NCBI GenBank assembly: GCA_948467695.1
Contig: CAOKFJ010000044.1
Span: forward strand, 1-10,241
Origin: an uncultured Allobaculum sp.
Lineage (GTDB): Bacteria > Bacillota_I > Bacilli_A > Erysipelotrichales > Erysipelotrichaceae
Direction of reading: 5' to 3'
Length of the DNA: 10,241 nt
Translations under genes and position numbers: made by a program
Shown: positions 1,922-9,918 of the stretch, one piece after another
Layout of the letters: every line of letters starts with the position of its first letter
Position numbering within the stretch: the first letter of the stretch is position 1
Notes under the pieces: model-generated
What the model saw: the letters and a program-made list of their open reading frames with translations, nothing else
Told to the model about the DNA's origin: nothing
The model's database searches: none

Positions 1922-2490
1922 TATGATTCCTCCACTTCATCAAAGAGAGAGCTTTGCATCTCCCCTAGTTCAACCTCGGGCAGATCCCCGAGGGATTCAA
2001 TTCCAAATGTATCGTAAAACGCCGGCGTGACCTGGTATAAAAGCGGCCGGCCGATGGCGTCGAGATGTCCGCACGTTTCCACAAGTCCTCGTGCCTGCAG
2101 CTTCTTGAGCATCATATCGCTCGAAACGCCGCGGATCTCATCGATTTGCACTCGGGTGATCGGCTGACGGTACGCGACAAGCGACAGCACCTCCATCGCC
2201 GGTGCGGAAAGCGCGCTGCTGCGTATCTTGGAATACAGCTTCTGCGCGAACGGATAAATCGGTTCTTTGGCGACATATTTCCAGCAGCCGCCGTATCGCA
2301 CAAGTTCGATGCCGCGATCTTCCGACAGGCAGTCGTGCTTCATTTCTTCAAGGGTGCTGACAAGGGTCGATCGCTCGCACCAGTCGAGCACGGACTGCAG
2401 CTGAAGAAGCGTCAGTCCCTCTTCACCGCTGGTGAAGATCAGCCCTTCAAGCAGGGATTTCAGTGATTCACTGGAAGCTGATGAATCCAT
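1921..2490 (-). CDS. scpB: segregation and condensation protein ScpB
   Basis: A 189-residue winged-helix protein that dimerises and binds ScpA to regulate the Smc condensin in chromosome compaction and segregation. Visible are an N-terminal winged helix with SLLEGLIFTSGEEGLTL (12-28), the central family signature LSAPAMEVLSLVAYRQPITR (94-113) followed by DEIRGVSSD (117-125), and GRPLLYQVTPAFYDTFGI (147-164). A short acidic tail follows. The ATG at 2490 is preceded by AAAGGA seven bases upstream. Its first 31 bases overlap the 3' end of scpA in another frame, a longer overlap than the 1-4 base junctions elsewhere in the cluster. No better later start is visible, because the conserved helix begins at residue 12. 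Length is normal for the family. Confidence 0.95.
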   Translation of the reverse strand: MDSSASSESLKSLLEGLIFTSGEEGLTLLQLQSVLDWCERSTLVSTLEEMKHDCLSEDRGIELVRYGGCWKYVAKEPIYPFAQKLYSKIRSSALSAPAMEVLSLVAYRQPITRVQIDEIRGVSSDMMLKKLQARGLVETCGHLDAIGRPLLYQVTPAFYDTFGIESLGDLPEVELGEMQSSLFDEVEES

Positions 2491-3212
2491 ATATCGTCCT
2501 TTCCATTTTCCTGATCAAGATATACGCCGGCAGCGCCCTCGTGAACGAGTTCGAGCACCGCCAGAAAGGTCACCACCGCTTCGTGCAGAGTATGAATGTC
2601 TTCAAGCAGACGCTCGAAGCGTACAGGTGTTTCGCTAAAGCATTCCATATTGAGAATCTGCGCCATTCGCGTCTCGATGCTCAGTTCCTTGACCTCTACC
2701 TTTGTCTGATAAGGCTGTATGAGCTGATAGCGTCTGAGCACGCGCACAAACGCCTTGGAGAGCGCGTCAGGCGATATGGAAAGCTTCTCGTCATAGGAGG
2801 GCGTGTTCTGCCACTCTTCAATGCGGCTTGAGGGCTCGCGCCCGAGTTTCATCGCTCTATCCCTGGCGAGCTTTGCGATGGCTTCGGACTGCGCTTTGCA
2901 TTTTTCATATTCGCGAAGCCTTCTGGCCAGTTTCTGCGCCGGATCTTCGACGTAGCCTTCTTCATCCGGCTCGATGACTTCAGGTCTTGGCAGAAGCTTT
3001 TTTGATTTGTATTCGAGAAGCGTCGCAAATTCGACAAGATACTCGCTGCTAACATCAAGCGCAAGCGAAAGTGCCTGATGAATGTAGTCGCAGTACTGCG
3101 CCGCGAGAATATCCAGATTGAGCTCGAACAAATCGAGTTTGGAGGAGCGCACAAGATGAAGCATCAGATCAAGCGGACCTTCAAACTGATCAAGACAGAC
3201 TTTAAATTCCAT
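2460..3212 (-). CDS. scpA: segregation and condensation protein ScpA (kleisin)
   Basis: A 250-residue kleisin that bridges the two Smc heads and recruits ScpB. The N-terminal helical domain contains FEGPLDLMLHLVRSSKLDLF (10-29) and SSEYLVEFATLLEYKSKKLLP (about 55-75), both hallmarks of the family. A charged, partly helical middle (residues 90-130) links to a C-terminal winged helix with VVTFLAVLELVHEG (213-226). The ATG at 3212 has a strong Shine-Dalgarno, GGGAGGAG, seven bases upstream. It is the first gene of the leftward cluster, facing a divergent plus-strand gene. The smc gene itself is not in the window. Length and motifs are ordinary, and assignment is very secure. Confidence 0.96.
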   Translation of the reverse strand: MEFKVCLDQFEGPLDLMLHLVRSSKLDLFELNLDILAAQYCDYIHQALSLALDVSSEYLVEFATLLEYKSKKLLPRPEVIEPDEEGYVEDPAQKLARRLREYEKCKAQSEAIAKLARDRAMKLGREPSSRIEEWQNTPSYDEKLSISPDALSKAFVRVLRRYQLIQPYQTKVEVKELSIETRMAQILNMECFSETPVRFERLLEDIHTLHEAVVTFLAVLELVHEGAAGVYLDQENGKDDIWIHQLPVNH

Positions 3213-3485: not shown

Positions 3486-4211
3486 ATGAAACGCGCCATT
3501 TTATTCCTTGCAGCCGCGCTGTTTATTCTGCTGGTCATCGACCCCAACCTCAGTGCAAGTCTCTCGCCTGAACAGGAGAAGATACCTGTCTATGACGATA
3601 ACGCTCCTTTGCGAACCAATGACGAGGTCGAACTGCGACGCAGTTCGTCAAACGCGCTGATTTACATCGACCCTGCGCGCGGAGGACGGGACAGCGGCTA
3701 TGTCGCTCCTTCGGGCACAAGCGAAAAAGACCTTCTGATGCAGATGGCCCTGACCATCGGCACCGCCCTCGAAAACGCCGGATATCGCGTTGAATACTCG
3801 CGCTGGTACGATGATGTGCCGGCGTGCACAGATACCGAAAACTGCGAAGCGGTACGCATTCAGAAAGCGCGTGAGGCCGGCGCCGACTACGTTCTGTCGC
3901 TGCAGATGAATCAGGACAATTCTCTTCATCAGGGCTATTCTCTGTTTGTGCGTCCCGACAACGACCTGCTCATCGGCCTGTCGCGCGATATCGCGGACGA
4001 AATCCAGAACGCCAACTATTCCCGTTTCGAAGGACTCGACACCGACCATTTCGACGCGTTCCCCGTTTTGCAGGATCCAAATCTCAACGCGATTCTGCTT
4101 CAGATCGGCTATGTCACCAATCCGCAGGACTATTCGCGCATGTCGGATTCGAAATTCCAGACGCGCATTGCCAACGCGGTTACCCGCGCTTTTCTCAACA
4201 CCGTCAACTGA
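3486..4211 (+). CDS. Amidase_3-fold envelope protein with degenerate active site (probable pseudo-amidase)
   Basis: A 241-residue protein with an N-terminal hydrophobic signal or anchor (residues 4-18) followed by an N-acetylmuramoyl-L-alanine amidase (Amidase_3) fold covering about 58-241. The fold is recognisable by IYIDPARGGRDSG (59-71), SEKD (79-82), the Val-Glu-Tyr-Ser-Arg strand, LSLQMNQD (137-144) and LLQIGYVTNPQDYSRM. In active enzymes these read DPGHGG, EKD, SxHxNA and VExGFxSN. Here the first zinc His is R65, the second zinc His is Q140 and the catalytic Glu is Q206; only the zinc ligand E80 remains. It is therefore unlikely to cleave peptidoglycan and may instead bind it or regulate another enzyme. 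ATG 3486 is chosen because GGAAAGGAG ends five bases upstream and the signal sequence follows directly; a TTG at 3447 has no comparable site. It stands alone between divergent scpA and a probable terminator. The fold is secure; the function is unknown. Confidence 0.85.
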   Translation: MKRAILFLAAALFILLVIDPNLSASLSPEQEKIPVYDDNAPLRTNDEVELRRSSSNALIYIDPARGGRDSGYVAPSGTSEKDLLMQMALTIGTALENAGYRVEYSRWYDDVPACTDTENCEAVRIQKAREAGADYVLSLQMNQDNSLHQGYSLFVRPDNDLLIGLSRDIADEIQNANYSRFEGLDTDHFDAFPVLQDPNLNAILLQIGYVTNPQDYSRMSDSKFQTRIANAVTRAFLNTVN

Positions 4212-4421: not shown

Positions 4422-4549
4422 TATTGTGAAACAATTCAGGCCTGCCTGTTTCTGTCCGCCCTCTGGAAACTTTCTTGCGTTCTGCATAAGAATGCGCCCT
4501 TTTCAGGCGCAAGGCGGACAGAGCCGCTGATCACTTGAAAACAGATTGT
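4411..4549 (+). ncRNA. candidate structured leader RNA or small RNA
   Basis: TCTGTCCGCC (4451-4460) pairs perfectly with GGCGGACAGA (4513-4522). Inside it is a second hairpin, TGCGCC (4493-4498) with GGCGCA (4506-4511). The outer stem can be extended by CTGTTT (4446-4451) with AAACAG (4539-4544) and ACAAT (4431-4435) with ATTGT (4545-4549), leaving large side bulges. ACAAT can instead pair locally with ATTGT at 4423-4427 beneath CCTGA/TCAGG, giving two exclusive folds. The Nudix start lies about 94 bases downstream. It could be a cis-acting switch for the rightward genes or an independent RNA. No known riboswitch core was recognised, and there is no clear terminator between it and the gene. 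The shape, a long interrupted hairpin, loosely recalls 6S RNA, but I cannot support that name. Confidence 0.4.
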
Positions 4550-4642
4550 GCATGCTTCCTGATGGCGTATGTGACGCGAAAACGGCATGGACAGGACCGC
4601 AGTTCGGTTTTGACAGTCTGTTTTAAAGACGAAAGGAAAATC

Positions 4643-5137
4643 ATGAACAAAGACAACACCAGCATTCTGTACAAGGGACCCATTTTCTCCATTGTGCGCA
4701 CCGAACTTGAGCTGAACGGCAAGATGGTTGACCGTGATGTTCTCGTTCATTCCGGAGGCGCCGGCATTCTCGCGCTGCAGGATGGCAAAGTGCTCATGGT
4801 CCGACAGAAACGTGCCGGATCGGGACGCGAAATGATTGAAATTCCCGCCGGCATGATCGACAGCAATGAAGATCCCCGACAGACCGCACTTCGCGAACTC
4901 AATGAAGAAACCGGCTATGAAGCCGAGAAGATCGAACTGATCACCTCTTTTTACCCCACTCCGGGCTATGACAGCGAGCGACTTTTCATCTATCGCGCCA
5001 CAGGACTCGCACCCGCTAAAAAGCGTCTGGAAATGGACGCGGATGAAGAAATCGATCTGTTCTGGATGGATCTTGACGAAGCAAAAGCAAAAGTTTTCAA
5101 CGGATTGAAGACGCCAAAACAATCATCGCGCTTCTGA
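4643..5137 (+). CDS. Nudix hydrolase, ADP-ribose pyrophosphatase-like, with frameshifted C-terminus
   Basis: A 164-residue Nudix protein. The Nudix box spans residues 70-92 and fits G-x5-E-x7-REL-x-EE-x-GY exactly (G70, E76, R84, E85, E88, E89, G91), so Mg-dependent pyrophosphate cleavage should be possible. FYPTPGYDSE (103-112) downstream of the box is typical of the ADP-ribose pyrophosphatase (NudF/YqkG) group, which makes AMP and ribose 5-phosphate. AAAGGA ends five bases before ATG 4643. The ending is odd: after N153-G154 the frame reads LKTPKQSSRF and stops, while the neighbouring frame from 5104 reads IEDAKTIIALLMA and stops at 5145, which is the ending expected for this family. One base therefore appears to be missing near 5099-5104; restored, the protein would have about 167 residues. 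It is first of the rightward gene set. Confidence 0.85.
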   Translation: MNKDNTSILYKGPIFSIVRTELELNGKMVDRDVLVHSGGAGILALQDGKVLMVRQKRAGSGREMIEIPAGMIDSNEDPRQTALRELNEETGYEAEKIELITSFYPTPGYDSERLFIYRATGLAPAKKRLEMDADEEIDLFWMDLDEAKAKVFNGLKTPKQSSRF

Positions 5138-5197: not shown

Positions 5198-5254
5198 GAA
5201 TGGATTTCCATTCCCAAAACAAAAAGAAGAAAACGAAAGAAAGGAGCAGCAATT
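5198..5254 (+). promoter_or_regulatory. translation-initiation region of the ATP-grasp gene (hairpin, A-rich leader, SD, TTG)
   Basis: GAATGG-ATTT-CCATTC (5198-5213) is a perfect six-base-pair hairpin that buries the in-frame ATG at 5200. It is followed by an A-rich stretch (5216-5240) and then AAGGAG (5241-5246), seven bases before the TTG at 5254. This layout strongly favours TTG as the true start, because the ATG has no good ribosome binding site. The unpaired A-rich tract may aid ribosome loading. Confidence 0.6.
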
Positions 5255-6462
5255 TGGAAAATTTTATTTTTATTTCCCCAAACTACCCGCAGGGCTACTG
5301 GATGTTCTGCCGCGGTCTGAAGGAACAGGGCGCGCGCGTGCTGGCGGTGATCGACACCGACTACAATGCTCTTGCCCCCGAACTGATCGCCAATTTTGAC
5401 GAATGCTACAAAGTCTCCTCGTTTCACAACTACGACGAAGTGTATCGCGCAGTCGCCTACTTCGCCGCGAAATACGGAAAACCCGACTGGATTGAATCCA
5501 ACAACGAAGCATGGCTTGATCTTGACGCCAAACTGCGCGACGACTTCAATGTAAAATCAGGCTTCAGCTACGAACAGATTGAAGAATTCCAGTCTAAAGC
5601 GGCAATGAAAGCCTACTACCAGAAAGCCGGCATTCCCGTAGCGCCGTATATTCTTCCCAAAACCCTCGAAGAAGCGAAGGCGTTCGCCGAAGTGCATGGC
5701 TGGAATCTGGTGCTCAAGCCCGACCATGGCGTCGGCGCAAGCTTTACCTGGCACATTCACAATCCCGAAGAACTCGAGAAATACTGGATCGAATCGCAGG
5801 CGCTCTGCCTGCAGATGATTCTGGAAAAATTCATCACCGGCAACGTCGTGACACTTGATGGTCTGGCTGATGCAGATGGAAACATCCGCTTCCTTGGCGG
5901 CATGAACTATGTCTCCAACTGCATGGATTCCGTTCAGAATCACGATTCGATCGGCTGCTACTACAACTTTGAAATCAGTCCCGAACGCCATCAGCTCGCG
6001 CAGAATGTCGTGAGCGCATTCGGCATCAAGAGCCGTTTCTTTCATGGCGAATACTTTGAACTGACCGAAGATCAGCCGGGCATCGGTTCAACCGGAGATC
6101 TCTGCGCGCTTGAAATGAACTTCAGACCGCCAGGAGGATTCTGCCCCGATCTGATCAACTATTCCTTCGATACGGATATCTACCGTCTGTGGGGAAAAGT
6201 GCTTCTCACCAATGAATGCGATGTGCAGGAGACCGCTCCCTATTCCGCCGGATTTGTCGGAAGACGAAGCGGTGTCGACTACATCAATTCGCTGGAAATG
6301 CTGATGAGCAAATACAAAGCGGAACTTCTCGGCGTAGAAGTCCTTCCGCCGGCCTTTGCGAGCGCCATGGGTGACGTGACGATCAAGGCCCGCTTTACCA
6401 CGCCTGAACGGCGCGTTGAATTCTTCGCGGATTCGTTCGCGCGCCGCATTACCGAAAATTGA
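5254..6462 (+). CDS. ATP-grasp carboxylate-amine ligase family protein
   Basis: A 402-residue ATP-grasp protein, start TTG 5254. Residues 1-105 form a pre-ATP-grasp Rossmann-like domain (FIFISPNYPQGYW). From about 110 the ATP-grasp core follows: KAAMKAYYQKAGIPVAPY, the ATP-binding lysine region VLKPDHGVGAS (K155), and the metal-binding CALEMNFRPPGG (E287, N289, R291), followed by DLINYSFDTDIYRLWG. Such enzymes activate a carboxylate as an acylphosphate with ATP and couple it to an amine, or rarely another nucleophile. The substrate cannot be deduced. It lies inside the cytoplasm (no signal or membrane segment). Its stop overlaps the TTG of the esterase gene by three bases, implying coupled translation and a shared pathway. 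An in-frame ATG at 5200 would add 18 lysine-rich residues and is considered unlikely. The family call is strong; the reaction is unknown. Confidence 0.85.
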   Translation: MENFIFISPNYPQGYWMFCRGLKEQGARVLAVIDTDYNALAPELIANFDECYKVSSFHNYDEVYRAVAYFAAKYGKPDWIESNNEAWLDLDAKLRDDFNVKSGFSYEQIEEFQSKAAMKAYYQKAGIPVAPYILPKTLEEAKAFAEVHGWNLVLKPDHGVGASFTWHIHNPEELEKYWIESQALCLQMILEKFITGNVVTLDGLADADGNIRFLGGMNYVSNCMDSVQNHDSIGCYYNFEISPERHQLAQNVVSAFGIKSRFFHGEYFELTEDQPGIGSTGDLCALEMNFRPPGGFCPDLINYSFDTDIYRLWGKVLLTNECDVQETAPYSAGFVGRRSGVDYINSLEMLMSKYKAELLGVEVLPPAFASAMGDVTIKARFTTPERRVEFFADSFARRITEN

Positions 6463-8443: not shown

Positions 8444-9115
8444 CTATGCAGATTTATTGTCGTTGATCTCTGTCTGTTCGTTGCCTTTTTCGTTTTGCAG
8501 ATTCTTTGTTCGAAACGGATCACTGTCGTGGACGAACGAATCGTTTTCCGGAAAGAGAATCTGAGAAGAGGCTTTTTCCAGATCAATGCGTCTTGAACGC
8601 TTGACGGGAACATCAACTTTTCCCTGTTCAAGACGAATGATTTTTGCGCGCGTGTTTTCCACCTGACGCTTTGAATAAAAGAAGAAACGCGTAAGCGTCG
8701 ACACGATCAGCATGCCCATCGCAAGCATCCCGGCGATCGAAAGCAGATTGATCATTTTAATCGCGCCCTCGCCTACCTGACCGGTCGCAAAGTCAACCAT
8801 CATTTTGTAGGCGGTTCCGCCTGGAACAAGCGGAATGAGCGCAGGAGCGGTAAAAGTCGTCACGGTCGTTTTCTGTCGGCGCGCGAAGTATTCTCCGAGC
8901 ACGCCGATGGCTATTGCCGCGATAAAGTTGGACATCCCCTCTCCCCAGCTGCAGCCGATCAGTAGCGTATAGACCAGACCGCCGATCGCGCCGGTAAGAC
9001 CGGATAGAACCAGATTCCAGCCGCGCACATTAAAGAGTACGCCAAATCCCAGAGAAGCCAGTCCGGCACCAAGAAATCCTTTCCAGAAAAGAACAAAATA
9101 TACTGGCAGATTCAT
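8444..9115 (-). CDS. threonine/serine exporter family protein, YjjB-like small subunit
   Basis: A 223-residue membrane protein matching the second half of ThrE-type exporters (ThrE_2/YjjB domain). Hydrophobic segments lie at about 6-28, 33-53, 60-77 and 122-145. The family signature is ALIPLVPGGTAYKMMVDF (92-109), preceded by GEYFARR. It should form one permease with the neighbouring YjjP-like protein; relatives export threonine/serine or, in other bacteria, have roles in dicarboxylate export, so the substrate is unsure. Residues 149-223 form a highly charged hydrophilic cytoplasmic tail, making the protein longer than typical YjjB proteins (about 150-160 residues). ATG 9115 overlaps the partner's stop by one base (TGATG) with GGGGG just upstream; the open frame continues upstream only as overlap with the partner gene. 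The stop touches the terminator. Confidence 0.87.
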   Translation of the reverse strand: MNLPVYFVLFWKGFLGAGLASLGFGVLFNVRGWNLVLSGLTGAIGGLVYTLLIGCSWGEGMSNFIAAIAIGVLGEYFARRQKTTVTTFTAPALIPLVPGGTAYKMMVDFATGQVGEGAIKMINLLSIAGMLAMGMLIVSTLTRFFFYSKRQVENTRAKIIRLEQGKVDVPVKRSRRIDLEKASSQILFPENDSFVHDSDPFRTKNLQNEKGNEQTEINDNKSA

Positions 9116-9918
9116 CACATCGCCCCCGTCATAAAAAGCCCGATCAGTACACCGATCGCGATGGCGCATGCGCAAAGCAGCGCCTGCATGAGAAGCACCA
9201 GGGCAGAGAGCGGTTCATCGATATCCGAATCTCGAAGCGCATTGGTAATTGTAAGTCCCGGAACAAGAAGCATGATCGAGGAAATGATCATGATCGACTG
9301 CGATGCTTCCGGCACATGCCGATGCAGTAGCACAGAGCATGCCGAGGCAAGAAAGGCGAGAAACATATTGACCAGATACGAATTGAGATGAATTTTCTCG
9401 CAGACCACGGTAAAGAATCGCACAATCAGACCGATCACGAAAACAAAAACGAGATCCGCGAGATTTCCGCCGAAAAACATTGAGAAGCCTGCAGCGCCGA
9501 TTGCTCCCCAAAGCGCTTTTGTCTCCGGAGAAAAATCCGGTGTTTCTTCAATCTCAGCCAGTCTCTCAAGTATCTGATCCGGCGTGAAATGCTTTCTTTC
9601 CGCCTGGCGGGAAAGATCATTTACCGCGCTGACAACGGAAAGGTTTCGACCGGTGTCATGAATGCGTGCCATGCTTGTGATGGTCTGTCCGCCCATCTGC
9701 ACTGTACAGATGACGCCTGTGACCATGACATAGCTCTCACAGGACTGCACAAACGGAATCGAGTTTCCAAGACGCGTCATTGTCTCTTCCACGCGATACA
9801 CTTCGGCACCGGATTTCATCAGCAGAACGCCTGCCTGCAGAACACAGTTTGCGCTCTCTTCCGCCTGACGGCGCCACAGTTCGCGCTGATCGGCGACAGC
9901 TTCGATTTTATCCGGCAT
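9115..9918 (-). CDS. threonine/serine exporter family protein, YjjP-like large subunit
   Basis: A 267-residue protein with a ThrE N-terminal (DUF1212/YjjP) domain. The first 135 residues are soluble (ANCVLQAGVLLMKSGAEVYR, VEETM, with the conserved early AEVYRVE segment). About five hydrophobic segments follow between residues 137 and 265. LLVPGLTITNALRDSDIDEP (217-236) matches the family PGxxxTNAxRD motif; the usual Gly-Asp-x-x-Ser-Gly after it is altered. It pairs with the downstream YjjB-like gene (one-base overlap) to make a split ThrE-type exporter. Two starts are possible: ATG 9924 lies only three bases from GAAAGGAG, while ATG 9918, two codons later, has a normal nine-base spacing and is preferred. 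No signal peptide. A leader of unknown length lies upstream (right). Confidence 0.88.
   Translation of the reverse strand: MPDKIEAVADQRELWRRQAEESANCVLQAGVLLMKSGAEVYRVEETMTRLGNSIPFVQSCESYVMVTGVICTVQMGGQTITSMARIHDTGRNLSVVSAVNDLSRQAERKHFTPDQILERLAEIEETPDFSPETKALWGAIGAAGFSMFFGGNLADLVFVFVIGLIVRFFTVVCEKIHLNSYLVNMFLAFLASACSVLLHRHVPEASQSIMIISSIMLLVPGLTITNALRDSDIDEPLSALVLLMQALLCACAIAIGVLIGLFMTGAM

Follow-up and report, generated by a model that had tools for sequence, protein, structure and literature searches.

What becomes of a cell-wall amidase once the residues with which it cuts have been replaced, and why would such a protein be kept? The question is raised by a gene for a protein of 241 amino acids (positions 3486..4211, + strand) in the window, i.e. 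the whole 10,241-nucleotide stretch analysed here, which is contig C44 of a 1.99 Mb, about 68% complete assembly of an uncultured Allobaculum sp.; the nearest named relatives of this assembly are Allobaculum sp. Allo2, A. mucilyticum 128 and two Erysipelotrichaceae genomes. The protein has an Amidase_3 fold without a complete zinc site, and we conclude with high confidence that the loss of the canonical amidase site is maintained across its relatives. Inactive hydrolases that control wall metabolism are already known, e.g. EnvC and CwlM. If our reading is true, an extracellular pseudo-amidase would span many genera of gut Erysipelotrichaceae, whose living members show intermediate stages of active-site loss and allow one to ask what remains after catalysis goes.

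Loss of the zinc site

The frame is open over the whole gene, in agreement with the first-pass annotation, and a ribosome-binding-site-like AAAGGAG lies just 5' of the ATG at 3486. An upstream TTG start (3447, 254 aa) was rejected because it is this ATG that has the AAAGGAG and because close homologs align from that Met. Pfam Amidase_3 (PF01520) matched residues 59-235 (3660..4190, +) with 92.6 bits at a cut-off of 27, and no other Pfam domain, M23/LytM included, was found in the 241-aa protein at E <= 0.001.

In the alignment with 12 Amidase_3 homologs the zinc ligand columns read H, E and H in all 12, and the fourth, catalytic column reads E in 11 and D in the remaining one (L002). At these positions the window protein carries R65 (3678..3680, +) in place of the first zinc His of GHGG, the retained zinc Glu E80 (3723..3725, +), Q140 (3903..3905, +) in place of the second zinc His of SxHxN, and Q206 (4101..4103, +) in place of the catalytic Glu. 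The four correspond to H49, E65, H133 and E199 of Clostridioides difficile CwlD, which the accessible part of PMC8496864 gives as zinc ligands (H49, E65, H133) and catalytic residue (E199). Direct indexing and the 12-homolog alignment thus bear out the three substitutions and the kept E80 that had been proposed from the sequence. A displaced His or Glu that might rescue the site was looked for in the alignments, and none fits the four catalytic positions. The window protein belongs to Amidase_3 by profile and fold and lacks the His-Glu-His set with its catalytic Glu; since the normal zinc site cannot form, no cutting by the family mechanism is expected.

Conservation and selection in relatives

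A full-length ortholog was found in 25 of 272 Erysipelotrichaceae genomes, distributed over 11 genera and scoring 141-530 bits, while the best match below this set reached 91 bits and covered the domain alone. The reading frame is open in all 25, and in a 64-row tree the pseudo group forms a single clade (support 100/99). Database homologs and orthologs were combined into 137 distinct sequences, after seven of 121 proteins shorter than 200 aa had been dropped and one duplicate had been merged. None of the 137 carries all four catalytic residues, so it is not the case that close relatives are all intact, and none carries both zinc histidines; the five sequences with H140 all have G65. Position 65 is occupied by R (53), H (34), N (19), K (17), G (5), Y (4), F (2) or L (1), with a gap in two, i.e. 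by R or K in 70 sequences. Glu is found at position 80 in 129 sequences (it is missing in 7 of the 136 having a residue there), Gln at position 140 in 84 and His there in 5, whereas position 206 is E in 78, Q in 55 and D in 4.

The losses differ from genus to genus. The commonest class, H-E-Q-E (29/137), keeps H65, E80 and E206 together with Q140, and genus g21 retains most of the site in this form; R or K at 65 is combined with Q206 in 47 sequences, and in G016 and G032 the GHGG loop itself is gone. On a tree computed without these columns, the minimum numbers of gains or losses of the catalytic letter at 65, 80, 140 and 206 were 5, 3, 2 and 5. Therefore, of the Arg/Gln/Gln pattern for which a search in relatives had been suggested, the absence of a complete site holds throughout, but the trio itself varies (R/K65 in 70, Q140 in 84 and Q206 in 55 of 137). 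As judged from the alignment, the conserved feature is instead the loss of the histidine pair together with a D-x-D-H motif.

This motif, D185-T186-D187-H188 (4038..4049, +), has D185, D187 and H188 identical in all 137 relatives, as are residues 183, 208 and 215, and H188 is the only invariant His among these sequences. None of the 12 aligned homologs has the motif; intact homologs read there e.g. RGLLDTNE or RGTQTTEN, and among the sequences of the tree the 39 amidases outside the group all lack D-H at 187-188. The motif may form a surface for binding, or else a metal site that has moved.

The ratio of non-synonymous to synonymous substitution rates (dN/dS) was determined on 25 ortholog pairs more than 55% identical, of which 14 were saturated in dS and 11 measurable. 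The latter gave values of 0.030-0.180, and the only two with dS < 1 gave 0.080 and 0.071; close pairs are under purifying selection. Because an intact site is found in none of the 137 relatives, the frames are open in 25/25 genomes, the gene order at scpA is kept and dN/dS is low, we regard the gene as maintained and not decaying, as the first-pass annotation had supposed.

Proposed function

The protein starts with a hydrophobic segment, residues 2-21 (3489..3548, +), which ends in P20-N21 and falls within a helix predicted for residues 2-24 by the structure model. Such a segment is found in all 25 orthologs, and an A-x-A site in residues 15-40 in none of them. A looser small-x-A triplet occurs in this range in 8/25 orthologs, the window protein included (LSA, 22-24), so that cleavage is still possible. 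Conservation of about 99% or more is seen at each of P20, N21, P34, T44 and N45, which lie in the anchor or behind it, and this is unusual for a passive linker. The N-terminus thus looks more like an uncleaved membrane anchor than like the intact signal sequence assigned before.

On this basis we propose a membrane-anchored, extracellular Amidase_3 pseudoenzyme that does not cut and is probably kept to bind a stem peptide or a partner protein. The underlying observations are the loss of the catalytic set, conservation, purifying selection, the hydrophobic N-terminus, the gene order and the absence of two sporulation markers; they suggest that a former cell-wall amidase now has a non-cutting job, and a non-catalytic binding or regulatory role is the account that we favor. 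The domain would face the outside and hold a stem peptide or a partner (one of the cell's own active amidases, or an enzyme of wall synthesis), and would in this way regulate or position wall remodelling, with the old groove or the D-x-D-H motif as the putative binding surface. With the zinc gone, E80 could form a pair with an Arg or Lys at 65, and the shape of the pocket would be kept, so that a stem peptide would be bound and not cut; R or K at 65 occurs only where E80 is present, namely in 70 of the 127 sequences with E80 and in none of the 7 that lack it (Fisher p 0.005, with no correction for relatedness). That the protein may bind peptidoglycan or regulate an amidase is a reasonable proposal. 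Regulation of a real amidase is possible because another Amidase_3 protein over cut-off is encoded in 23/25 genomes, in all 23 with an intact catalytic set (judged by eye in G004).

Paired Amidase_3 genes were also encountered. In the window genome (locus L089, contig C4) two stand in tandem, at 8732-9883 and 9948-11042; the first has all four catalytic residues, and the second keeps H-E-H with Asp at the catalytic Glu and His for the Asn of SxHxN. Two adjoining genes were likewise found in G004 (L150, contig C60; both copies look intact by eye), G002:C1:1498425-1499877, G003:C44:24948-26493 and G031:C39:63037-64461, and in G001 the match to the second member of the pair is split in two (G001:C1:422563-423106).

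By analogy, the closest precedent is mycobacterial CwlM. The accessible part of PMC4946905 describes it as an Amidase_3-type homolog with degenerate histidine/arginine at the zinc ligands, cytoplasmic and without secretion signal, which activates MurA; cells still grow with an allele that has none of the four zinc residues, and what makes CwlM essential is therefore not catalysis. CwlM thus exemplifies an amidase homolog that acts as a regulator although its zinc ligands are degenerate. As in CwlM, a zinc His is here replaced by Arg (R65; R/K in 70/137), and the second His has become Gln. Unlike the cytoplasmic CwlM, the present protein has a hydrophobic N-terminal anchor, an Erysipelotrichaceae host and the D-x-D-H motif. 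It also differs from C. difficile CwlD (PDB 7rag, with GerS), whose ligand set is complete and which, according to PMC8496864, is active together with GerS. Against the CwlD equivalog TIGR02883 the window protein scored 67.3 bits, well below the cut-off of 221.55. Staphylococcus aureus LytH, in its complex with ActH (PDB 7tj4), reportedly cuts off stem peptides, and its substrate may be restricted to uncrosslinked peptidoglycan; unlike LytH-ActH, the window protein lacks the catalytic set. EnvC has the M23/LytM fold, whereas the inactive domain here is itself an amidase domain, and Pfam gave no M23/LytM match. The two are alike in being hydrolase relatives with catalytic residues lost, EnvC being a degenerate LytM factor that activates amidases, as stated in the accessible part of PMC4946905. 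A literature search of titles and abstracts, with subscription papers mostly beyond its reach, returned none describing this pseudo-amidase group.

Gene neighbourhood and a possible link to sporulation

The divergent neighbor is scpA (2460..3212, -), followed by scpB, rluB and rsmE. scpA is divergent and the nearest query gene on that side in all 24 other loci, with a gap to the amidase of <= 424 bp in 22 of them, 0.9 kb in G216 and 2.3 kb in G002. Downstream follow a NUDIX hydrolase gene (4535..5137, +; in 20/24 other loci) and a gene for an ATP-grasp-like protein (5200-6462; in 23/24); in G208 a contig end cuts the comparison. The ATP-grasp-like protein is 52-77% identical across loci and its Pfam match is weak (CPSase_L_D2, 23.3 bits). 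In G001 (L057) scpB and rsmE, too, appeared in broken tblastn pieces; together with the split amidase match in this genome, this may reflect frameshift errors in the record. Scans for promoters and terminators gave 3 promoter-like sites versus 1.2 expected and 3 terminator-like sites versus 1.9, and were not used.

Of the 272 family genomes, 36 have a SpoIVA match over cut-off, and none of these is among the 25 that carry the ortholog. Spo0A_C over cut-off was likewise absent from these 25, with one weak sub-cut-off match in G203, and present in 7/10 comparison genomes. In this the protein differs from the CwlD of a spore former, as far as marker genes and a window assembly of about 68% completeness allow the comparison. 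In G060 and G237, which have both spore markers, an intact CwlD-like amidase is flanked by a NUDIX gene on one side and by divergent spoVA genes on the other. In G060 it adjoins NUDIX; in G237 one more open reading frame separates the two, and scpAB is found beyond spoVA. The identity of SpoVAD at these loci is supported by Pfam, and its neighbors are taken to be spoVAC, spoVAEb and spoVAF, in part from tblastn with the G237 proteins. Deleting spoVA from such a layout would yield the gene order of the window, and the junction is compatible with orthology to the spoVA-linked amidases. Loss of sporulation is known within Erysipelotrichaceae (accessible part of PMC8340488).

It is conceivable that the gene goes back to a spore-linked amidase of the CwlD type and diverged from it once sporulation had been lost, though we stop short of favoring this origin; the gene may then be a spore-linked one kept under selection in lineages no longer sporulating. 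More tentative, and to us rather doubtful in its entirety, is the full scenario, in which a spore-cortex-type amidase was recruited as a membrane-anchored wall receptor or regulator after the loss of sporulation in the gut lineage, catalysis, freed from selection, was lost piecemeal in parallel, and the new D-x-D-H site became the functional center.

NUDIX is divergent from spoVAC-spoVAD in L118, L120 and L123 (genus g69) and in L107, L115 and L127, a recurring arrangement that matches the NUDIX/ATP-grasp block of the window; in the three g69 loci the ATP-grasp gene stands behind NUDIX.

Weighing of alternative explanations

Several observations count against the function and origin proposed above. 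The Fisher test on the pairing of R/K65 with E80 takes no account of relatedness, and not every assembly offers an amidase partner, since G208 and G016 show no second Amidase_3 over cut-off. Completeness of 90% or more together with contamination of no more than 5% is reached by only 15/25 genomes, so that less weight can be put on the absence of the spore genes. Among relatives bearing spore genes, NUDIX faces spoVAC without an amidase in G238, G239 and G240 (genus g69) and in G009, G059 and G017, and these junctions weaken the reading of a sporulation origin. Furthermore, in the tree the pseudo group has a long stem and falls outside the remaining CwlD-like amidases, not beside the spoVA-linked ones, and the approximately unbiased test of a grouping with the two spoVA-linked amidases gave p 0.279, by which the grouping is neither rejected nor shown. 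The NCBIfam CwlD cut-off was reached by 0/11 proteins scanned, intact ones included. Finally, residual activity is possible in the H-E-Q-E class, because there only one of the four residues is missing.

This last class leads to the view that the group consists of amidases that retain part of their activity, Q140 serving as a poor ligand, or that a partner completes or stabilizes the zinc site, as GerS does for CwlD, which needs it for stable zinc binding (accessible part of PMC8496864). CwlD itself possesses the complete ligand set in that account, however, the window protein retains one residue of four, and R/K65 is combined with Q206 in 47 of 137 sequences; we consider this explanation improbable. 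Slightly better placed, yet still unlikely, is an enzyme with a relocated site, metal or acid-base, that is made up of D-x-D-H and perhaps E80 and serves a new substrate or chemistry. The invariance of the motif while all four old positions vary, and its absence from the intact homologs, would fit such a site, but E80 is missing in seven sequences that keep the motif, and binding surfaces too can carry invariant motifs. Least probable is a decaying sporulation relic without present function. The missing spore markers, the intact homolog adjoining spoVA in two relatives and the lost GHGG loop of G016 and G032 are in line with decay, but the dN/dS of 0.03-0.18 in the pairs that could be measured already contradicts it, and the open frames, the invariant motif and a gene order kept over 11 genera also count against it.
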